This document shows, one piece after another, positions 35,774 to 47,058 of a DNA stretch of 64,000 bases. The first letter of the stretch is position 1, and each line of letters begins with the position of its first letter. The translations under genes and the position numbers were made by a program. Source of the DNA: Aureispira sp. CCB-QB1 (GTDB lineage Bacteria > Bacteroidota > Bacteroidia > Chitinophagales > Saprospiraceae); assembly GCF_000724545.1 (NCBI RefSeq), contig NZ_JHBV01000038.1, positions 1-64,000 on the forward strand. Direction: 5' to 3'. Under the pieces are notes generated by a model that had not been told where the DNA came from, did no database searches, and worked only from the letters and a program-made list of their open reading frames with translations.

Positions 35774-35937
35774 AGAAGTTGTTTAAAATTAAGTAATAAT
35801 CAAATATGAAATCACTTTTTGTCCTACTTTGCGTTGGATTTTCGTCAAATAGCTACGGCTATTATTCTCAAATCCGCCTTAATTAGAACCAAAAATTGTA
35901 CTCATATTTAAAAAAGACGCAATTTTAAACGACTTCT
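35774..35937. repeat. 164-base nested palindromic element between purN and purF
   Basis: Outer 17-bp arms match at 16 of 17 positions: AGAAGTTGTTTAAAATT (35774-35790) and AATTTTAAACGACTTCT (35921-35937). Inside, GGATTT and AAATCC enclose AATAGC-TACG-GCTATT, another hairpin. The right arm ends in the purN stop codon. It encodes nothing and differs from the TAGTTCG repeat family. Confidence 0.75.
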
Positions 35938-36506
35938 TATTCAAAAATTCCTTGAAGTGTTTTACTATAAAAATAATGCTCTACTGCCAATCCTCGACGC
36001 TCAACTTCTTGTAAAGTATCTGCCCCTTTAAGATCAACAGGATGCTGCGCTATAATAGCTCCCGTATCTAATCCTTCATCTACATAATGGACGGTTACTT
36101 TTGTTGCGTCCAAACCATTTTCAAACGCCCAACCATAGCCATTTAAACCTTGGTGTTGGGTCGTATCCGCAGGATGAATATTAATAATCTGCTTTGGATA
36201 AGCTTGAACAAATTTGCTGGACAAGACACGCATATATCCTGCTAACACAATATAATCCAAATCGTAATTAGACAATAAAGTTAATACCTTTTCATCAAAA
36301 GTAGTTCGTTTTAGTCCCTTAGATTCTATCCATTGTGTCTCCAATCCTAATTCTTTGGCATATTCTAAACCAGCAGCACTTTGCTTGTTGGCAAAAACCA
36401 ACACTACTTCTGCCAAGTCTTTTAAAATACCTTGTTGACATTGCTCAACAATAGCCCTCATATTACTTCCTCGCCCCGATATAAATATCGCGATTTTCTT
36501 TTTCAT
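35937..36506 (-). CDS. purN: Phosphoribosylglycinamide formyltransferase, folate-dependent
   Basis: 189 residues, normal for PurN. The N-terminal motif IFISGRGSNMRAI binds the GAR phosphate. The formyl-transfer site is in QIINIHPAD, and the second catalytic element is VHYVDEGLDTGAIIAQ with its Asp. It formylates GAR with 10-formyl-tetrahydrofolate, step 3. Its ATG follows the purD stop with no gap, so the two are coupled. Confidence 0.95.
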   Translation of the reverse strand: MKKKIAIFISGRGSNMRAIVEQCQQGILKDLAEVVLVFANKQSAAGLEYAKELGLETQWIESKGLKRTTFDEKVLTLLSNYDLDYIVLAGYMRVLSSKFVQAYPKQIINIHPADTTQHQGLNGYGWAFENGLDATKVTVHYVDEGLDTGAIIAQHPVDLKGADTLQEVERRGLAVEHYFYSKTLQGIFE

Positions 36507-37757
36507 TTATTGAACTACTTTGTAAACACGTTGACCAATATCTTTTCTATAAAAATTATCTTTAAAGCTTACTTTTTTGCATTCCTCATACGCTTTTTGG
36601 ATAGCCGCATCTAATGTTTCACCTTGTGCAACAATGTTTAAAACACGTCCACCATTGGTAACGATTTTGCCCTCTTGTACTTTGGTTCCAGCATGAAAAA
36701 CGATGGCATCGTTTACTTCAGACAAACCGTGAATTTCATAACCTTTTTGATAACTTTTGGGGTAACCACCCGATACTTGTACAACATCTACAAAAAAGCC
36801 GTCCTCAAATTCCAAGGTCAATTCGCCCAATGTTCCATTCAAACAAGCCTTGACAATTTTTGACAAATCTGTTTTCAAAGAAGGCAACAATACCTCTGTT
36901 TCTGGATCGCCAAAACGAACATTGTATTCTAATAATTCTGGTCCATTTTCTCCCATCATAATACCAAAATAAATCACTCCTTTGTAATTCATTTTCTCGG
37001 CTTGTATCCCTTTCAAAGTAGGCTGAACAATTTTTTCGTCAATTTCTTGCGCCAAATCATCATTCCAAAACGGGACAGGGCACATCACGCCCATTCCACC
37101 TGTATTAGGTCCTGTATCACCATCGTTCAGCTGCTTGTGATCTTGAGAAGGGAGTAATAATTGAATATTTTGCCCATCTGTAAAACCAATAATCGAGATT
37201 TCGTCCCCAACAATTTTATCTTCAATCAGAAACGGACATTCCTCACCATACTGTGCTCTCATCTCATCCAAAGCATCCAAAGCTTCCTGCACATTATCAC
37301 AAACAAAAACACCTTTGCCAGCAGCCAAGCCATCGTACTTAATGACTAAATCACCGTCCATTTCATGTACAATTTCTTCGGCTTCACTCACTTCAGAAAA
37401 CGTATGGAAAGCAGCAGTTGCTACGCCATATTTTTTCATAAAATTCTTGGAGAAAATCTTAGAACCTTCCAAACGTGCCGCATCCTTGCACGGTCCCAAT
37501 GCTTTGATTGTTGTTTGATTAAAATAATCTACAATTCCATCAGCAAGAGGAACTTCTGGTCCTACAAAAATATAAGTAATATCATTGGCTTCACAGAACG
37601 TCTGGATAGCTTCAAAATCGCTAATGTCTATTGGATGACTATTAGGAATTCCACCATTTCCAGGCAAGGCGTATACGGCTTGTTCGCCTAAATCTTTTGC
37701 AAGTTTCCAAGCCAAGGCATGTTCTCTTCCTCCCGAGCCAATTATTGCTATTTTCAT
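36507..37757 (-). CDS. purD: Phosphoribosylamine--glycine ligase
   Basis: 416 residues, normal length. The ATP-grasp motifs include VIKYDGLAAGKGVFVCD (about 135-151) and LLEYNVRFGDPETEVLLP. IIGSGGREHALAWKL at the N-terminus is the typical PurD opening. It joins glycine to phosphoribosylamine, step 2. purN follows with no gap. Confidence 0.97.
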   Translation of the reverse strand: MKIAIIGSGGREHALAWKLAKDLGEQAVYALPGNGGIPNSHPIDISDFEAIQTFCEANDITYIFVGPEVPLADGIVDYFNQTTIKALGPCKDAARLEGSKIFSKNFMKKYGVATAAFHTFSEVSEAEEIVHEMDGDLVIKYDGLAAGKGVFVCDNVQEALDALDEMRAQYGEECPFLIEDKIVGDEISIIGFTDGQNIQLLLPSQDHKQLNDGDTGPNTGGMGVMCPVPFWNDDLAQEIDEKIVQPTLKGIQAEKMNYKGVIYFGIMMGENGPELLEYNVRFGDPETEVLLPSLKTDLSKIVKACLNGTLGELTLEFEDGFFVDVVQVSGGYPKSYQKGYEIHGLSEVNDAIVFHAGTKVQEGKIVTNGGRVLNIVAQGETLDAAIQKAYEECKKVSFKDNFYRKDIGQRVYKVVQ

Positions 37758-37773
37758 TTTTTAAATTTTACAA

Positions 37774-37934
37774 TAGTTCGTTAAAAACGTTATTAGTTTA
37801 ATAGCCAGCAAGTTGTCGTTTTATTATATTTCACTTAACCTTTTCCTTGCCAAGTCATATAAATATACTTTTTCACTAAAAATATAAAAAAGTAAGACCA
37901 AACGACCACGTAATAGTAGCCCAACTAACTACTA
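37774..37934. repeat. Dispersed palindromic repeat, inverted copy
   Basis: It lies between purB and purD. TAGTTCGTT opens at 37774-37782, and the right part (37903-37934) is the family core in reverse orientation: on the minus strand it reads TAGTAGTTAGTT ... ACGTGGTCG. The copy is therefore in the opposite direction to those at 41214 and 42979. Confidence 0.55.
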
Positions 37935-37979
37935 ATTTTGCAACATTGCTAATTATTTCTAGATGAAATCTATCCATCC

Positions 37980-39341
37980 TTACTGCATAATTTCCTTAGC
38001 TGTTTTGATTGTTAGATCACAGATACGAACGGCATCTCCAATATAATCTACTGTCTCTAACTGATAAATTCTATCTTTTACAGATTGCTCTATATCCAAG
38101 CCTTTTACCAAATCCATTAACATTTCTCTAGTTGGTTTTTGTCCACGAGAAACTTTCTTCAATAAAGTATATGGATCGTCTACCCCTACAATTTTAAGAA
38201 TGGTTTGGATTGGTTCAGCTAATAATTCTGGACTATCTTGCAATTCCTGACGGCAATTCTCTTCATTAATTTTTAATTTGTTCAACCCTCTTAATAACTC
38301 TGTCATACCCAATGAAGCATATGCCAAAGCGGAGCCCATATTGCGTTGAACTGTTGAGTCAGAAAGATCTCTTTGCATTCTAGAACGACACAACTTGTCA
38401 GACAAAAAGGTCAACATAGAGTTAGACAACATTAGATTTCCTTCACTATTCTCAAAGTTGATTGGATTTACCTTATGTGGCATGGTAGAAGAACCAACCT
38501 CTCCTGCTTTTACTTTCTCTGAAAATAAATCTTTGGAAATATACAACCAGCAATCTACGTCCAAATCCATTGCAATATTATTAATCTGGCGCGTCCAGTT
38601 AAAGTACGTAGCAAATGTATCGTGGTCTTCGATCTGAGTTGTTGCAATATTAGGTTCTAAACCATGCTTTGTCAAAAAGTTATGCGCAAATGTCAACCAA
38701 TCAAAATCAGGAAAGGCAGACAACATAGCAGAGTAATTTCCTACTGCACCATTAATTTTGCCTAAAAAAGTAAAGCTTTTTAAAGATTTGTAAATTCGAG
38801 TAATGCGGTTAATAAATACTGCAAACTCTTTCCCCGCAGTACTTGGAGACGCTTTTTGACCGTGCGTACGGCATGGGAAAGGAATATTCTTCCAAGCCTC
38901 TGCCAATTCGATCAATTTATTTAATACTTCTTCAATTTGTGGCAAGTGCTGTTCTTCTAGATAATCTTTTAGCATAAAGTTATACGCCAGATTATTAACG
39001 TCCTCCGATGTCAAGGCAAAATGCAGCATATTTACATCGCGCAATTCTGTACGCTCTCTCAAAAACATCTCACAAGCTTTCACATCATGGTTGGTAACAC
39101 TTTCTATCTCTTTGATACGCTGATAGTCCGCATCTGTGAAATTGTCAATACAATCTTGAATGTTTGCTTTTTCTGTTGCATTCAATGGCTCAAATAGTCC
39201 TGCCTCATCCAAGGCTAACACATATAGTAACTCTACCTTGCAACGGTAGTACATCAATCCTTTTTCAGAAAAATATTTTCTATGAGGAACTAATTTTCCA
39301 GCGTATCGACCATCTAAAGGTGAAATAGCATCAATTATCAT
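37980..39341 (-). CDS. purB: Adenylosuccinate lyase
   Basis: 453 residues, normal length. The fumarase/aspartase superfamily signature SSTMPHKVNPINFE is present, with SVTNHDVKACEMFL and THGQKASPSTAGKEFAVF carrying the catalytic His residues. It acts twice in purine synthesis: SAICAR to AICAR, and adenylosuccinate to AMP. A nested palindrome lies just upstream of its start. Confidence 0.97.
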   Translation of the reverse strand: MIIDAISPLDGRYAGKLVPHRKYFSEKGLMYYRCKVELLYVLALDEAGLFEPLNATEKANIQDCIDNFTDADYQRIKEIESVTNHDVKACEMFLRERTELRDVNMLHFALTSEDVNNLAYNFMLKDYLEEQHLPQIEEVLNKLIELAEAWKNIPFPCRTHGQKASPSTAGKEFAVFINRITRIYKSLKSFTFLGKINGAVGNYSAMLSAFPDFDWLTFAHNFLTKHGLEPNIATTQIEDHDTFATYFNWTRQINNIAMDLDVDCWLYISKDLFSEKVKAGEVGSSTMPHKVNPINFENSEGNLMLSNSMLTFLSDKLCRSRMQRDLSDSTVQRNMGSALAYASLGMTELLRGLNKLKINEENCRQELQDSPELLAEPIQTILKIVGVDDPYTLLKKVSRGQKPTREMLMDLVKGLDIEQSVKDRIYQLETVDYIGDAVRICDLTIKTAKEIMQ

Positions 39342-39812: not shown

Positions 39813-41111
39813 CTAATTTCGAATCACAGCATCTGCATCTGCTAACGATTGTTTCATTTCTACAATCTCTTGAGCCATTTGCTCACGAATACTAGGAATA
39901 TTTAGGCTAGAAACGGTTGCTCGAACAACACTATCCATTGATGCTCCTACCCCATCAATAACAGGAACACTGAGATTGGCAACCAAAGCCATCCCTAAAC
40001 TATCTGGACCAACAGCAATCACTGCTACAGGTTCTACAGAAGTATTGTAAACGGCGGCTAAGTCTAAGATTCGCTCTCCATTTCTATCTGCCGAAATCAC
40101 GCGCATATCTACACAGAGGTCGTATTCTTCTACCAAATCTTTTAGAACTTTACAGTCGTCCAAATCTTCTTCATCGTCCATAATAATTCCGATAAAACCA
40201 GGCTTCAATACGCCCGCTTTAACAAGGTTATTATAAATACGAACTTTAGAAGGTAGGTCTACCAAACTAAAAGGCTTCCCTGTAACTGCTTTGTAAATTT
40301 CTTGGTATCTACGACTGGTTTCTGCGACTACTTCTGGTGACAGAATAGTTGGCACCTCTCCATTTACTTGATTCGCTAGCATCCATTGGCGAACAAATTC
40401 CTTATCAATTTGCTCTGCTGTTGATGGATTCGCTTGATAATCCTCTAAACTCCAGAAACGAGAAGAGTCAGGCGTATGCATTTCATCAATCAAAATCAAC
40501 TTGCCATCTAGCAAGCCAAACTCATATTTTGTATCCACCAATACAATTCCTCGTTCTGCCAAGAATTCACTACCAAATGTAAACAACTCAATGGCTTTAG
40601 CTTTCATCTGTTGATAAATTTCTGCACTTACCAAACCCGCTTCTAAAATTCCCTGCTCGTTGATTTCAGAATCATCGTCATCTTTTGTCGTTGGTGTTAA
40701 AATAGGTTGATCAAATTTTTGATTTTTGACCATTCCATCAGGAACGACTACATCACTAATTTGACGTTTTCCATTTTCATATCCTCTCCACATAGAGCCC
40801 GTCAAATATCCACGTACTACCATTTCTACACGAATAGGTTCTGCTTCTTTTACTAACGTCACATAATCATCTACTTGCTCAATGACGTGATTGTCTATAA
40901 TATGCTTTGTTTGCTCAAACCAGAAATTGGCAATACCATTTAAAACAGCCCCTTTGGTAGGAATAGCTGTCTTTATTTTTTTATTAAATGCTGAAATACG
41001 ATCCGTTACAACAATCATACGTGTATTATCATCAATACGGATACTATCTCTAACTTTTCCTCTATGAAGCGTTTTTAGTTGAGGGGAATCAAATTTTGTT
41101 AAGCAATCCAT
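39813..41111 (-). CDS. purC: SAICAR synthetase (PurC) with a C-terminal degenerate PurE-like domain
   Basis: 432 residues, about 120 longer than stand-alone PurC. Residues 1-300 are PurC: LHRGKVRDS, VVTDRISAFN, VEMVVRGYLTGSMWRGY, LVDTKYEFG and DEMHTPDSSRFW. Residues about 306-405 resemble PurE, in particular the animal PAICS type: GIIMDDEEDLDDC aligns with the GSxSD loop, MRVISADRNGE with SAHK/SAHR, and AVGPDSLGMALVANLSVPV with the AGR/AGGAAHLPG loop. The catalytic His of SAHR/SAHK is Asp342. The PurC half should ligate aspartate to CAIR. The C-terminal half may be inactive, structural or regulatory. No purE or purK gene lies in this window. Confidence 0.9.
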   Translation of the reverse strand: MDCLTKFDSPQLKTLHRGKVRDSIRIDDNTRMIVVTDRISAFNKKIKTAIPTKGAVLNGIANFWFEQTKHIIDNHVIEQVDDYVTLVKEAEPIRVEMVVRGYLTGSMWRGYENGKRQISDVVVPDGMVKNQKFDQPILTPTTKDDDDSEINEQGILEAGLVSAEIYQQMKAKAIELFTFGSEFLAERGIVLVDTKYEFGLLDGKLILIDEMHTPDSSRFWSLEDYQANPSTAEQIDKEFVRQWMLANQVNGEVPTILSPEVVAETSRRYQEIYKAVTGKPFSLVDLPSKVRIYNNLVKAGVLKPGFIGIIMDDEEDLDDCKVLKDLVEEYDLCVDMRVISADRNGERILDLAAVYNTSVEPVAVIAVGPDSLGMALVANLSVPVIDGVGASMDSVVRATVSSLNIPSIREQMAQEIVEMKQSLADADAVIRN

Positions 41112-41299: not shown

Positions 41300-42919
41300 C
41301 TAATGTTTGAAGTGTCTAATGCCTGTAAAGACCATTGATACTCCCAAATCATTGCAAGTTGCAATAACCGACTTGTCTCGAATAGAACCTCCTGGTTGAA
41401 CAATTTTTCGGATACCTGCTGCGGCAGCTATCTCCACATTATCTGCAAATGGGAAAAAGGCATCTGAAATTAGCCATGCATTTGCCAATTCTTCAGCTAC
41501 ATAAGCTTCAAAATCTTCGGCTGCTCCAGTGTATTCATTGCGTAGGTTTTCACGGCTTTTCTCAATAGATAGCTTAGTTGCAATCAATCGGTTGGGTTGT
41601 CCTGCTCCCATTCCTAACAACTGAGCATAACCATTTTTAAAACGAACAATAGCAATAGAATTTGACTTAATTGTTTTGATGGCACGCAAGCCAAACTCAA
41701 TCAATGGTTGTTCTACCTCCATATCAACAGGAGCTTCTGTAACTACATCCAACTTGTTGTGCAACTCATTGTCGGTATCTTGTGCCAACAAACTACCATT
41801 CATATAACGCAAGTCCATGTGACCAGTTAGGCTAGCAGCATCAAACTCTATGATACGAAGGTTTTTGTGTTGTTGTAAATAAACCAACGCTTCTGGTGTA
41901 AATGCAGGTGCAATAACAACCTCTACAAATTTGCGTTTGCTCTTGTCCTCATTGTTCAATTCAAAAAACTGCACTGTTTCAAAGGTCACCTTTTTATTAA
42001 ATGCGATGATAGAACCAAATGCAGAAATAGGATCACCAGCCCAAGCCAATTGCAACAATTCTGCTTGATCGTCTCCTTCACAAAGTCCACAAGGATTGCT
42101 GTGTTTAATTACAGAACAAGCAGAACGAGTAGATTCTTTGATGGCTTCAATCGCTCCATTAATGTCTAGAATATTATTAAAGGACAAGGCTTTTCCATGC
42201 AAAACATTCAAATCATACAAAGAATTGTCTGCATTTTTTTCTTTGTAAAAACGAGCAGCTTGATGACTATTCTCACCATAACGCAAATCAATACCTTCTT
42301 CAAAGCCCAATCGCAAAGAATTGACGCCAATTTCTTTGTCCATTGTGGTAGCAATCAATGCATCGTAGTCAGCCGTATGATTAAATGCTTTGGTCATCAA
42401 TTTTTTGCGAAAATCATAAGTCAAAGCCCCCTTGTGGCTTTTTAATTGTACCATCAACTCTGTATAATCCGAAGGTTGTGTTACTGTCGCTACATACTTA
42501 AAGTTCTTTGCAGCAGCACGAATCATGGTTGGACCACCAATATCAATGTTTTCAATTAGTGTCTCAAAGTCAGCTCCTTTTTTGAGGACTTCTTGAAATG
42601 GGTACAAGTTACAAACCACCAAATCAATAGGCTCAATATTAAGTGCAGCCGCTTCTTCGGCATCTTTTTCACGATCAAACAACAAAGCTGACTCGATGTT
42701 AAAAGAAATTGTTTTCATACGACCACCAAAAGCCTCAGGATTTCCTGTCACAGTAGAAATTTCTGTTGTTGTAATGCCTGCTTCCTCTAGTTTTCGTTGT
42801 GTTCCTCCTGTCGAAATAATCTCACAGCCTGCATCTGCCAAAGATTGTGCTAATTCAACTATTCCTGTTTTGTCTGAAACGCTAATTAAAGCTCGTTTAA
42901 TCGGAATCAAAAGATCCAT
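41300..42919 (-). CDS. purH: Bifunctional AICAR formyltransferase/IMP cyclohydrolase
   Basis: 539 residues. The N-terminal IMP cyclohydrolase domain (about 1-200) starts RALISVSDKTGIVELAQSL. The AICAR transformylase part (about 200-539) has the catalytic Lys-His in SVIKHSNPCGL and ends with IVQPGGSIRDKSVI. It performs the last two steps to IMP. Slightly longer than the usual 510-530. Confidence 0.97.
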   Translation of the reverse strand: MDLLIPIKRALISVSDKTGIVELAQSLADAGCEIISTGGTQRKLEEAGITTTEISTVTGNPEAFGGRMKTISFNIESALLFDREKDAEEAAALNIEPIDLVVCNLYPFQEVLKKGADFETLIENIDIGGPTMIRAAAKNFKYVATVTQPSDYTELMVQLKSHKGALTYDFRKKLMTKAFNHTADYDALIATTMDKEIGVNSLRLGFEEGIDLRYGENSHQAARFYKEKNADNSLYDLNVLHGKALSFNNILDINGAIEAIKESTRSACSVIKHSNPCGLCEGDDQAELLQLAWAGDPISAFGSIIAFNKKVTFETVQFFELNNEDKSKRKFVEVVIAPAFTPEALVYLQQHKNLRIIEFDAASLTGHMDLRYMNGSLLAQDTDNELHNKLDVVTEAPVDMEVEQPLIEFGLRAIKTIKSNSIAIVRFKNGYAQLLGMGAGQPNRLIATKLSIEKSRENLRNEYTGAAEDFEAYVAEELANAWLISDAFFPFADNVEIAAAAGIRKIVQPGGSIRDKSVIATCNDLGVSMVFTGIRHFKH

Positions 42920-42978
42920 TGTTTGTTATTGATTTATGTGGTTTTGATAAAAAATTGTTCTTATGTTGTTATTAATAA

Positions 42979-43014
42979 TAGTAGTTAGCGATGCTGCTAC
43001 TTCGTGGTCGTTGA
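42979..43014. repeat. Dispersed palindromic repeat, short copy without right arm
   Basis: TAGTAGTTAGCGATGCTGCT then ACTTCGTGGTCGTTGATT: the left arm and core of the family, upstream of purH. The right arm TCAACGAACTA is missing. Confidence 0.65.
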
Positions 43015-43049
43015 TTTTTAGGTTGTATTTCTATCGCACGCAAACACAA

Positions 43050-43083
43050 AGAGCCTGTTTGAAGTATGCTCCAAACAGGCTCT
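43050..43083 (-). terminator. Terminator of the purL-purQ operon
   Basis: A perfect 12-bp stem (43083-43072 with 43061-43050), a 10-base loop, and TTTGTGTTT on the minus strand. It lies 117 bases past the purQ stop. Confidence 0.7.
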
Positions 43084-43199
43084 ATCTCGCCTAGTTTTAT
43101 TCCCTATATACACATTGTATTAGGTTTATTTTTGTATCAACGATATACGTATTTTGAATGCCTGTTTTCATTGGTTAGCCTTCAATTAAATGTTTTGTC

Positions 43200-44036
43200 T
43201 TAAACTGTTGCCAGCTTCTTCGTTTTGATATGCTCTACAATATTTGTAAAGATAGTTAATCCTTCTCCCGCTTCGTTATGATTTGGATTATTTCGTTTAA
43301 TTTGTCCCCAATTTGGATGATTGTACAAACTCAAATAAGCCTCTGGATGTGGCATCAATCCAAACACCTGTCCTGTTGGGTTGGTTAAACCAGCACAATT
43401 CAAATCAGCACCATTGGGATTCGCTGGATAATCTGCTGTTTCCGTACCATCTTCGGTACAATAAGTCAAACAATTTAGGCTTTCTGCCTGCACTTTTGCA
43501 CGCATGGCATCATCCATAAAAATTAACTTACCCTCCCCATGACGAGCAGGCAAAGCAATCTTAGTTATTCCTTTCAAGAAAGGCGTTTTGGTCGTACTAT
43601 TAACCTTACAATAAACCCAACGATCTTCAAACTTTCCTGAGTTGTTATTGCTCAATGTAGCTTCTGGCTCAAAGTCATGGTTCGTATTCGGCAATAGCCC
43701 CATTCTCACCAACATTTGAAAACCATTACACACGCCTAAAATATACTTACCATCTTCCAAAAACTGTTTAATTTCATCCAATAAAACGTTTCCAGAAGGT
43801 AATTTTTTAAACTTAATTTTATTAGAAACTACTTTTCCAGATGCCAAATCATCGCCAAAAGAAAAGCCACCAGGAAAGTTTAAAATATCATAATCATGAA
43901 TAGAAACTTGTCCCAATAGAATCTCATTTAAATGGACAATTTCTGGTATCGCTCCAGCCAATTGATAAGCAGCTGCCATTTCTTCTTCACAATTGATTCC
44001 GAAGCCTGTTATCACTAAAGATTTTACTGTTGTCAT
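43200..44036 (-). CDS. purQ: FGAM synthase glutaminase subunit
   Basis: 278 residues, longer than the usual 220-230 of stand-alone PurQ and close to the C-terminal glutaminase domain of the large single-chain enzyme. Motifs: FPGGFSFGDDLASG, the nucleophile Cys in ILGVCNGFQMLV and the His of LMPHPEAYLS. It supplies ammonia from glutamine to PurL. It starts 16 bases after purL. Confidence 0.93.
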   Translation of the reverse strand: MTTVKSLVITGFGINCEEEMAAAYQLAGAIPEIVHLNEILLGQVSIHDYDILNFPGGFSFGDDLASGKVVSNKIKFKKLPSGNVLLDEIKQFLEDGKYILGVCNGFQMLVRMGLLPNTNHDFEPEATLSNNNSGKFEDRWVYCKVNSTTKTPFLKGITKIALPARHGEGKLIFMDDAMRAKVQAESLNCLTYCTEDGTETADYPANPNGADLNCAGLTNPTGQVFGLMPHPEAYLSLYNHPNWGQIKRNNPNHNEAGEGLTIFTNIVEHIKTKKLATV

Positions 44037-44052
44037 GTTATTTTTCTATTTA

Positions 44053-47000
44053 TTACAATACCAAACCTCCTGCCCAAGCATCTAGTAGGGTTTCTGTTGG
44101 TAAATCAATCAAGTTATTATTATTAGAAGTAATGTTAATTGTCTTTTCAGCGGTTACTTTTCCTAAGTAGTAAGCCTTGTCGCCCAAAATAGCCTCAAAT
44201 GCCGCTTTATTCTCTGGACGAATAGACACTACAAAACGAGAATGTGATTCAGAAAATAGTTTTACCAAATCTGTCCAATCACCTAAAGCATCCAAATTAG
44301 CTTCCAATCCAAACTCGCCTCCAAAAGCCGACTCTACCAAAGCAACTGCTAGTCCACCATCGGATAAATCATGACTTGATTCAATTAGGTTAGCCGCATT
44401 CGCTTTCATAACATTTAAGTACAGTTCTTTAGCCGCTTCTTTGCGTACTTTAGGTACATTTGCCCCTAGCTCGTTGTACAAGCTATAAAACTCTGAAGCA
44501 CCTAATTCATCATAAGTTGTTCCCAATTGATAAACTAAATCTCCTGCTGCTTTGAAGTTCGACGTAACTGTTTTTCTAACATCGTCTACCTTCGCTGTCA
44601 TTGAGTACAAGATTGTTGGCGGTACCGATATTTTAACACCATCTGCTTTGAAGTCATTTTTCATACTATCTTTGCCCGATGTTAGAGGAATATCGAAATA
44701 AGTTGCCATATCATTCAATGCTTCACACATCTGAACCAATTTAGCCAATTTCAATTTTCCATCTGGATTACTGACTTCGTGATACTCTGAATCAGGTACA
44801 CAGAAATTGTCGTTTACCGACCAAAAAATACCATCATCCGACTTTGTATTTGGCAAACTTCCTCCTGCTGAAATAATTTGACGCACGGCTTCATCAAAAG
44901 CCCCTGCCGACATTTCATAAGCATCAATATCGCCGTATCTAGGCAAAATTCCGTTAGAAACAGCCACCCCTTCAAAGCTATTGAACCCAAAACGCATAAT
45001 TGCAGCATCTTGTGGTGCTTTTCCTTTGGGTCCCATCAACGGTTTGATAATTGTTTTACCTTTTACCTCATGATCGTACTGACGAATAATAGACTCTCTA
45101 GAGCATATATTTAGACTTCCCATTAATTGAACCAATACCTCATTATAATTCTCTATCGTTGGCAAAGTTGGTTCTTTTAAAGAAGGCTTATCCCATTGTG
45201 CATACATCACTTTTTGAGGATCACCTTCATGTAGGAATTCCATATCCAAATAAGCTACTTTATTATCATTGTAGCGAATATCCAAATAACCATTGTCTGT
45301 AAACACTCCAATGTCGGTCAATTCCACCTCCATTGCTTTGGCCATTTCAAACAAAGGCGCTACTTTATCCTCCTCAATAACCAATGACATTCGCTCTTGA
45401 GATTCCGAAACAAAAATCTCCCAAGGTTTTAATCCTGCATATTTTAAAGGCACTTTTTCTAGGTGTACAATAGCTCCTCCAGAAATAGTTGCTAATTCAC
45501 CAATAGAAGAAGACAAACCACCAGCACCATTGTCGGTACTACACTTCACCAATCCTTCCAAACAAGCTTTTACTAAAAAGTCTGCTACTTTTTTCTGTGT
45601 AATTGGACTTCCAATTTGAACTGCGGAAGATGGAGAATGCTCATCAATTTCTATAGAAGAAAACGTTGCACCATGAATACCATCTTTCCCCACACGTCCA
45701 CCTGCAACAATAATTCTATCTCCAGCATCAATTGGTTTCTCCCAAGATGGTTTTCCTTTGTAGTCGTAAGGCATTAAAGCACCTGTTCCACAATAAACCA
45801 AAGGTTTACCACTATAACGATCGTCAAAAACAACCGAGCCATTTACGGTTGGAACCCCAGATTTGTTCCCGCCATCTTCAATTCCAGACACCACTCCTTC
45901 CATAATTTGGCGAGGGTGTAATTGCCCCGTCAACAAAGGTTTGTCATAATCTGGATTACCAAAACAAAGTACATTGGTATTAAACAATAACTTTGCACCA
46001 CCTACTCCTGTACCTAAGGGGTCACGATTATTACCCAATATACCAGTAATAGCCCCTCCGTAAGGATCTAAGGCAGATGGAGAATTGTGCGTTTCTACTT
46101 TCCAAACAAACAGCTGATCTTTGGTTGCTTTAACCACTCCAGCATTGTCAGAAAACACCTTCACCAACCACTTATTGTTGTTTGCTTCTAGACTTTCTTG
46201 AACCGTAGATGTTGTTCCTTTGATATACGTTTTAAATAGAGAATTGATGGTTTTCTCTTCTCCCGTTTCTGTATTTTTATAATGAATGGCAGCATTAAAC
46301 TCCTTGTGTTTGCAGTGTTCTGACCAAGTCTGCCCCAGTATTTCCAACTCACAATCGGTAGGGTCTATTGGCAAACCTACTGCTTGACGTGCTTCTTTTG
46401 TCTTGTCATTATTATAATAACCAACAATGGCTTTCATCTCGGCTAAATTCAGAGCCAACACCTTTTCTTTCGACAATTGTACCAAATCCTCATCACTTAG
46501 ATTCAAGTTAACAATCTCTGTCGTAGCATCCGTTGTCATTTTCACTTCAGGCACATAAGGTTTGAAACTCAATGTTCCCGTTTCGTCTTGATAAGCATAG
46601 GTAAAGTGATTGATCAAAGGATTTCCCAACAAGCGTTTGGCAATCAATTTCAACTCTCCTTCCAAAAGCTTTTCCTCAAAGTAATACACTACTTGCGTAA
46701 AAATTTGCTGTGTATTTACATCCGCTTCTATATTAAAGAAATCTACCCATGCCATTTGAGCAGACATCCCTTCATCATCAGTTACCCCTGGCAATTGAGC
46801 AATCGCAATACAAGATTGATAATCTGTCGGTGCATACAACTCATTAACCAAAATTTCATCTGTTACAACATCTTTAATACAACGAGTGGCATAGTCGTGT
46901 AGTTCGGCTGAACTTGCATTGTAGTTGATTGAAAAAAGCTTCGCGCTTTTTACCTTTCCTGTTGTAATCCCTAATTGTTTTAGGCATTTCTCTTCAACCT

Positions 47001-47058
47001 TTTTGCCTTTTACATCAACGATGTGTGGTTTCAATAAAACTTGAATAGAAGCAGTCAT
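44053..47058 (-). CDS. purL: FGAM synthase synthetase subunit with N-terminal PurS-like region
   Basis: 1001 residues, compared with about 740 for small PurL. The first 165 residues appear to be two PurS-like units (SIQVLLKPHIVDVKGKKVEE and SCIAIAQLPGVTDDEGMSAQ). Then come the linker and two AIR-synthase-like halves, with LGQTWSEHCKHKEFNAAIHY, KVETHNSPSALDPYGGA and SHDLSDGGLAVALVE. PurL plus PurQ (1001+278) approximates the about 1295 residues of the single-chain E. coli-type enzyme, so this looks like that enzyme split in two. It makes FGAM from FGAR, ATP and ammonia, step 4. Confidence 0.95.
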   Translation of the reverse strand: MTASIQVLLKPHIVDVKGKKVEEKCLKQLGITTGKVKSAKLFSINYNASSAELHDYATRCIKDVVTDEILVNELYAPTDYQSCIAIAQLPGVTDDEGMSAQMAWVDFFNIEADVNTQQIFTQVVYYFEEKLLEGELKLIAKRLLGNPLINHFTYAYQDETGTLSFKPYVPEVKMTTDATTEIVNLNLSDEDLVQLSKEKVLALNLAEMKAIVGYYNNDKTKEARQAVGLPIDPTDCELEILGQTWSEHCKHKEFNAAIHYKNTETGEEKTINSLFKTYIKGTTSTVQESLEANNNKWLVKVFSDNAGVVKATKDQLFVWKVETHNSPSALDPYGGAITGILGNNRDPLGTGVGGAKLLFNTNVLCFGNPDYDKPLLTGQLHPRQIMEGVVSGIEDGGNKSGVPTVNGSVVFDDRYSGKPLVYCGTGALMPYDYKGKPSWEKPIDAGDRIIVAGGRVGKDGIHGATFSSIEIDEHSPSSAVQIGSPITQKKVADFLVKACLEGLVKCSTDNGAGGLSSSIGELATISGGAIVHLEKVPLKYAGLKPWEIFVSESQERMSLVIEEDKVAPLFEMAKAMEVELTDIGVFTDNGYLDIRYNDNKVAYLDMEFLHEGDPQKVMYAQWDKPSLKEPTLPTIENYNEVLVQLMGSLNICSRESIIRQYDHEVKGKTIIKPLMGPKGKAPQDAAIMRFGFNSFEGVAVSNGILPRYGDIDAYEMSAGAFDEAVRQIISAGGSLPNTKSDDGIFWSVNDNFCVPDSEYHEVSNPDGKLKLAKLVQMCEALNDMATYFDIPLTSGKDSMKNDFKADGVKISVPPTILYSMTAKVDDVRKTVTSNFKAAGDLVYQLGTTYDELGASEFYSLYNELGANVPKVRKEAAKELYLNVMKANAANLIESSHDLSDGGLAVALVESAFGGEFGLEANLDALGDWTDLVKLFSESHSRFVVSIRPENKAAFEAILGDKAYYLGKVTAEKTINITSNNNNLIDLPTETLLDAWAGGLVL

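Follow-up and report, generated by a model that had tools for sequence, protein, structure and literature searches.

The stretch of DNA analysed here (64,000 nucleotides from Aureispira sp. CCB-QB1, hereafter called the window) carries a seven-gene purine cluster on one strand, in the order purL-purQ-purH-purC(E')-purB-purD-purN. The gene of interest, purC-purE', is located on the minus strand and consists of a single open frame from ATG to stop that occupies exactly positions 39813 to 41111 and encodes 432 amino acids. Downstream of it (35937..39341) lie purN (35937-36506), purD (36507-37757) and purB (37980-39341), and upstream (41300..47058) lie purH (41300-42919), a purQ-like gene (43200-44036) and purL (44053-47058), all of them on the minus strand. 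The products of purN, purD, purB and purH scored over the cut-offs of the NCBIfam models TIGR00639, TIGR00877, NF006764 and PRK00881 respectively; for the remaining two, the PurQ and PurL models were the best matches and each stayed below its own cut-off. A 108-aa open frame antisense to purD (37365-37691, plus strand) is probably meaningless, and nothing of note was found among repeats flanking purC-purE'. The window genome comprises 184 contigs with 7.37 Mb in total. In another genome of this species (G727, 2 contigs) the protein is identical letter for letter, and the protein of genome G006 is 91% identical with the same deletions, so that a sequencing or assembly artefact is scarcely conceivable. 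The nearest named relative is an Aureispira MAG, 91% identical.

Residues 1-285 of the protein (40257..41111, minus strand, as are all parts of the gene given below) form an intact SAICAR synthetase (PurC) domain. Pfam PF01259 matched residues 15-247 with an E-value of 3e-70 and 237 bits (cut-off 20), TIGR00081 gave 196.5 bits (cut-off 189.9), and the genome profile search returned this fused PurC as the one PF01259 match in the window genome. A linker region follows (residues 286-303, 40203..40256), with a helix predicted by AlphaFold2 at residues 288-298 and an Arg291 that is kept across the compared fused proteins. The remainder, residues 304-432 (39816..40202), is a degenerate class II PurE (AIR carboxylase) domain, as judged from profiles, PDB matches, predicted fold, motifs and a dN/dS ratio treated below.

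The first-pass annotation had read the gene as PurC fused to a degenerate PurE-like domain of the animal PAICS type, and the searches bear this out. The Pfam AIRC/PurE profile (PF00731) matched residues 307-407 with an E-value of 4.7e-7 and 29.9 bits in the protein scan and with 32.3 bits in the genome scan (cut-off 30), and NCBIfam TIGR01162 (purE) matched the same residues with an E-value of 7e-7 and 28.9 bits, far under its cut-off of 149.6; these matches are weak but clear. A PDB search with the whole protein aligned residues 308-407 as the best stretch, both to invertebrate PAICS (E 6e-9) and to human PAICS (E 1e-7), and the C-terminal domain alone still matched the same two proteins with E-values of 9e-5 and 9e-4. 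Because Pfam, NCBIfam and PDB matches all fall on this domain, it is not a chance alignment, and the fold matches agree with them. The AlphaFold2 model of the window protein had a mean pLDDT of 90.5, with blocks of the C-terminal domain at 85-96 save for the last two residues; its input alignment included intact relatives, which possibly favoured a PurE fold. The pLDDT of the C-terminal domain was higher than in the intact relative L040 (57-93). Foldseek matched the predicted C-terminal fold to PurE chains, including the PurE of Treponema denticola, with TM-scores by target of 0.57-0.67 among the matches listed.

The origin of the domain can be read from its relatives. Proteins L038-L055, which are 51-58% identical to the window protein over their best segments, are fused in the same way and have the class II motifs complete (MGSxSD, SAHKN, AGRSNGLGGALxAN and NSSLxMPSxTP), and a graded series of forms connects the window domain to these intact fusions. 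Searched against the PDB, the domain of L040 gave its best matches to PAICS (invertebrate and human) and to T. denticola PurE; the remaining PurEs, which we take to be class I, ranked below them. With class II motifs kept in the relatives and such best matches for L040, the ancestor of the C-terminal domain evidently was a class II AIR carboxylase of the PAICS-like kind, already fused to PurC. By their sequences, intact relatives such as L040 and L042 have the PAICS-type architecture with both active sites; in the window protein the PurE site has been lost. The T. denticola enzyme (class II; PDB 3rg8, 3rgg) is the closest free-standing PDB relative of the intact fused domain (E 2.9e-20), but it stands alone, is active (a kcat is cited in PMC9376930) and keeps the SAHK and GRSN motifs that are lost in the window.

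Animal PAICS (PDB 2h31, 6yb8, 4ja0) shares with these proteins the order PurC then class II PurE and, with the intact bacterial relatives, the class II motifs; among PDB chains, it is PAICS to which the window C-terminal domain aligns best. In contrast, the PurC part of the window protein matches best the NCBIfam model PRK12607 (below its cut-off) and, in the PDB, yeast SAICAR synthase, so that the bacterial fusion looks independent of PAICS, and the carboxylase site is destroyed in the window protein. A lateral origin from animal PAICS was likewise rejected: the PurC part resembles a different type, and in a tree built without eukaryotes it has bacterial PurCs as neighbours.

To describe the erosion, 20 intact fused proteins (two of them fragments) were taken as a reference, and 62 positions of the C-terminal domain and 100 positions of PurC were found to be invariant among them. 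Three intact proteins outside this defining set (L213, L214 and L216) keep 60-61 of the 62 class II positions. The window protein keeps 28, with gaps at 15 of the 62, together with 97 of the 100 PurC positions. Other genomes retain 26 (G006), 24 (G004), 15 (G007) and 42 (G005) of the class II invariants, while G047 retains 14 (13 in a larger alignment) and G003, which belongs to the window's genus, 58; PurC is kept at 91-98 of 100 positions in all of these and in the window. The AIRC score falls stepwise in parallel, from 122-126 bits in L040 and L042 through 105 in L054, 78 in G005, 30 in the window, 26 in G006 and 17 in G004 to no match in G007. The domain is cut by a premature stop near its end in G005, and it is gapped and shortened in G004 and G007.

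Three altered sites in the window domain were located. First, SAHK is replaced by SADR at residues 340-343 (40083..40094), which places Asp342 where the catalytic His is expected; the role of this His is taken from PMC9376930. Secondly, the substrate loop AGRSNGLG is replaced by GPDSLG (residues 368-373, 39993..40010) with a deletion of two residues (GPDS--LG). Both changes, with the loop reading VGPDSLGM, are as the first-pass annotation had described them. Thirdly, about 26 residues have been deleted, the site of the lost stretch being at 39933..39956: gaps occupy 23 of the 29 columns that correspond to intact residues 389-417 (CPPF...NSSLMMPS.TP) and 3 of the 14 that correspond to 418-431. 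The long C-terminal helix in the AlphaFold2 model (residues 406-431, 39819..39896) is retained, and all 24 columns that align with L040 residues 432-455 are within the range seen in intact relatives. Of the 18 residues that form the human AIRc site (as listed in PMC9376930), 7 are within that range in the window.

That the domain still works as a carboxylase, by way of an unusual active site, is very improbable. It does retain the site residues Met311, Asp316, Ser340 and Ala341. However, His342, Lys343, the GRSNG loop and the NSSLMMPS stretch are altered, the general-base His is given in PMC9376930 as universally conserved in class I and class II PurE, with replacement mutants that fail in complementation, and a class I route is encoded in the same genome. 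Because Asp342 replaces the general-base His, the window domain would not be expected to carboxylate AIR. It may thus be regarded as a putative pseudoenzyme, with the fold predicted to be kept, the catalytic residues lost and the domain retained by selection.

The domain is uncommon, as had been supposed when it was first noticed. Among the matches listed, strongest first and all to PurCs near the query, it was found on PurC in 4 of the 395 genomes sampled from the phylum and in 13 of 396 from the order, and on this basis the reading that it is the ordinary C-terminus of PurC under another name was rejected. Seven further phylum genomes, in which the PurC match or frame looked long or a stop was read through, were rejected, since the AIRC search gave stand-alone PurE only in each. 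In the order sample, one fragment that ends at a contig end (G534, query residues 1-190) was assigned no class. Nine genomes of family f12 (G501, G511, G554, G558, G563, G572, G576, G580 and G584) gave no match to the PurC-PurE query; three of them are given as >90% complete, and loss of purine synthesis or assembly gaps are possible.

It had also been remarked from the sequence alone that no other purE or purK is nearby. Within the window this stands, its only AIRC match being the fused domain, but it does not hold for the genome. A search for a separate PurE found one further AIRC gene on another contig (C8), which encodes a canonical class I PurE (SAHRTP, GGAAHLPG) and directly adjoins PurK. 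Over 83 residues, this PurE and the fused domain share 29.8% identity. Like the class II enzyme, class I PurE and PurK (the N5-CAIR route) yield CAIR; unlike the fused domain, they are separate genes with the motifs of the other class.

Profile searches for AIRC and PurK covered 35 genomes, many of the genomes in these and the other comparisons being MAGs. With an intact fusion (21 genomes), neither stand-alone PurE nor PurK was found over the cut-off in any; with an eroded domain (6 genomes), PurE and PurK were present in all six; and with a PurC of the same type that lacks the domain (6 genomes), PurE was found in five and PurK over the cut-off in four. PurC was absent from the search results in the remaining two, one of which (G001) has PurE and PurK and the other (G002) neither. 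Three cases are to be read individually. In G082 (domain absent) PurK is split and under the cut-off, in G079 (without the domain) PurE and PurK are both missing, which an incomplete MAG may explain, and in G083 (intact) a second AIRC match of 25 bits, below the cut-off and with an internal stop, was not counted as PurE. G002, a member of the window's genus given as 97% complete, has no PurC, AIRC or PurK over the cut-off and might be a purine auxotroph or show an assembly gap.

A similar picture was obtained with the order sample (396 genomes), in which the 7 intact fused genomes had one match each and the 6 eroded and 5 unfused genomes of the same PurC type had two, the second match being counted as a stand-alone PurE without individual reading; the five fused genomes covered by both searches (G000, G003, G005, G032 and G047) agree with the result from the 35 genomes. 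The two sets overlap, and the clearly new genomes are G528, G539 and G549 (intact) and G544, G567 and G727 (eroded). Identical PurC rows mark L055/L217, L046/L212 and L061/L226 as probable pairs from the same genome. The tie between erosion of the fused domain and stand-alone PurE and PurK is strong but not absolute, because two genomes of family f28 (G154 and G248) combine a near-intact fused domain with a class I-like PurE (L160 and L161, SPHRTP for SAHRTP), PurK being found over the cut-off in neither. The three f28 fused loci, L123 (G468), L124 (G248) and L125 (G154), keep 54-55 of the 62 class II invariants and 90-95 of the 100 PurC positions and have variant motifs (GSPAD or DSPAD, AGLSNGLG). 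It is thus possible for a fused domain and a stand-alone PurE to co-exist, the fused motifs in f28 being variant. In G468 the genome profile searches found neither a further AIRC match nor a PurK above the cut-off, and its variant site may be that of an active, unusual class II enzyme.

Trees of PurC and of class I PurE were used to see how often the states had changed. From the PurC trees L063 (too short) and L083-L088 (including L086, a contig-end fragment) were left out, as were L034-L037 and L042, which are the same genes as L005, L007-L009 and L010. The fused types make up a single clade of the PurC tree (support 98 in one tree; 100/100 against a chosen outgroup in two others). Nested within it are members that lack the domain, which was therefore probably lost several times; the domain-less L062 and the G739 group lie on long branches, and L060, which stops at a contig end, was not scored as a loss. 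Eroded forms occupy two places, one in Aureispira and one in genus g41 of family f12 (G047, G544 and G567). The latter three loci, L220 (G047), L221 (G544) and L219 (G567), represent a second eroded PurE domain in another family. The intact G003 was placed among the eroded Aureispira (98/93 and 100/94), a placement that would mean parallel erosion within the genus; a single eroded Aureispira clade was not rejected (p-AU 0.065). Flank synteny in G003 stops before purEK.

In the class I PurE tree, the PurEs of these genomes are scattered over several positions, and the well-supported branches require 4 changes or more; seven Aureispira-type PurEs stand together (99/98). Such scattering fits repeated acquisition. 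Tree-aware tests on five pairs gave 4-5 concordant and 0 opposed (p 0.0625-0.125), or 3-4 of 5 concordant when the traits were swapped (p 0.125-0.25), and the PurK test gave 4 of 4 (p 0.125); G079, the incomplete MAG, was left out of the pair tests, and G082 also from that on PurK. The association is therefore suggestive, not significant, when the tree is taken into account.

Selection on the remnant was estimated with a scripted dN/dS calculation in the style of Nei and Gojobori. Between the window protein and that of G006, both eroded, the C-terminal domain gave a dN/dS of 0.120 (95% 0.056-0.210; dS 0.86), with 23 of 129 residues changed and no indels, and PurC gave 0.027 (0.012-0.048), dN of the domain being about 3.5 times that of PurC. 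As the eroded state is common to both, these differences postdate the erosion. In the second lineage, the dead domains of G544 and G567 (g41/f12) gave 0.027 (0.005-0.062) and PurC 0.046; comparison of G047 with G567 was saturated, and that with G544 gave 0.22 (0.11-0.40). Spanning pairs within Aureispira (intact against eroded, or eroded in different ways) ranged from 0.15 to 0.43 where dS could be computed. All these ratios are rough, because dS was about 0.6-1.1 in the pairs relied on. By these estimates the eroded domain is evidently under purifying selection, and the constraint is partial, since its dN is higher than that of PurC and the G047/G544 and spanning pairs gave higher ratios.

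A useless domain would be expected to approach a ratio of 1, and with 0.12 and 0.027 between partners that were both already eroded, the remnant does not behave as a neutral relic. A leftover without any role, on its way to being lost, would account for the graded erosion, for the premature stop in G005 and the gaps and shortening in G004 and G007, for the ratios of the spanning pairs and for the fact that several PurCs of this clade lack the domain. We nevertheless consider it unlikely, as the fold is predicted to be retained with high confidence, the window and G006 domains are free of indels relative to each other, and Arg291, Tyr355-Asn356, Glu360-Pro361, Leu378, Pro385 and Leu431 (L040 numbering) are kept in 8 of 8 eroded proteins compared. 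Among these, Arg291, Asn356, Pro361, Leu378, Pro385 and Leu431 are kept in all fused proteins of the alignment, two fragments excluded. Outside the deleted stretch, class II invariants of the active site are kept less than the others (mean 1.6 versus 2.7 of 5 lineages, one-sided p 0.018, for a comparison chosen post hoc).

The suggestion that this is a dead or repurposed PurE domain is thus supported, and to it are added the intact relatives, the separate PurE and PurK and the purifying selection on the eroded domain. Preferably, and with a probability of about 0.75, the protein is explained as a former bifunctional PurC-class II PurE in which class I PurE and PurK displaced the carboxylase, while the dead domain was retained by PurC as a structural module. 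The starting point would have been a bifunctional enzyme that corresponds in bacteria to animal PAICS but is built on another type of PurC. The conversion of AIR to CAIR would then have passed to a class I PurE and to PurK, which uses ATP and whose gene lies with that of PurE at another place in the genome, and erosion would have come second: the general-base His became Asp, residues binding phosphate and AIR were changed, and a further conserved stretch was deleted. The fusion most likely had made the PurE domain part of the folding or assembly of PurC, so that the active site would have been free to go and the scaffold not. What remains would most likely be a non-catalytic structural module that serves PurC in folding, stability or subunit assembly. 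This dependence is breakable, because some lineages of the same PurC type lack the domain, and PurC can evidently do without it.

Alternatively, the domain may have been repurposed, either to bind class I PurE in mixed assemblies that pass CAIR to PurC or to sense a nucleotide and regulate PurC. Constraint on the eroded domain in two lineages and the class I PurE in all six eroded-domain genomes among the 35 would suit such a role, and PMC9376930 describes human PAICS as an octamer with a proposed CAIR tunnel between the sites. However, most of the region corresponding to intact residues 389-417 has been deleted, and if it makes a subunit contact, assembly would suffer; moreover, the low identity of the genome's own class I PurE to the fused domain counts against such a role. 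We regard repurposing as somewhat less likely still than a relic without a role. Returning to the structural module, a bolder form of this reading, which we advance tentatively and doubt more than we believe, is that the same domain turned at least twice independently, each time beside class I PurE and PurK, into a pseudoenzyme scaffold on which PurC depends, and that it possibly docks class I PurE and so keeps the hand-over of CAIR.

Some elements of this system have been described. Fused PurCE is called common in eukaryotes in PMC3261824, which also states that class II AIR carboxylase joins CO2 to AIR without ATP. The methanobacterial PurE-PurE' tandem fusion described there resembles the window protein in retaining a second PurE-like domain in one chain, but both its domains are PurE-like, it has no PurC, and its gene complements purE and purK deletions. 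Titles and abstract openings among the literature matches listed describe neither a bacterial PurC-class II PurE fusion nor a dead version of it. The PurC-class II PurE combination is known as the PAICS architecture; apparently new, among those matches, are its occurrence in bacteria on the longer type of PurC and a dead but constrained form of it.

These proteins form a readable displacement series of a central metabolic enzyme, with intact, partly eroded, dead-but-constrained and absent states on one PurC clade and two or more of these states inside one genus. They bear on what decides whether CAIR is made by the class II route, which needs no ATP, or by the class I route, which consumes it, and provide matched proteins for asking why a dead domain is kept and how a bifunctional enzyme becomes monofunctional. 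For annotation, it follows that a PurE match on a PurC fusion must not be called AIR carboxylase.
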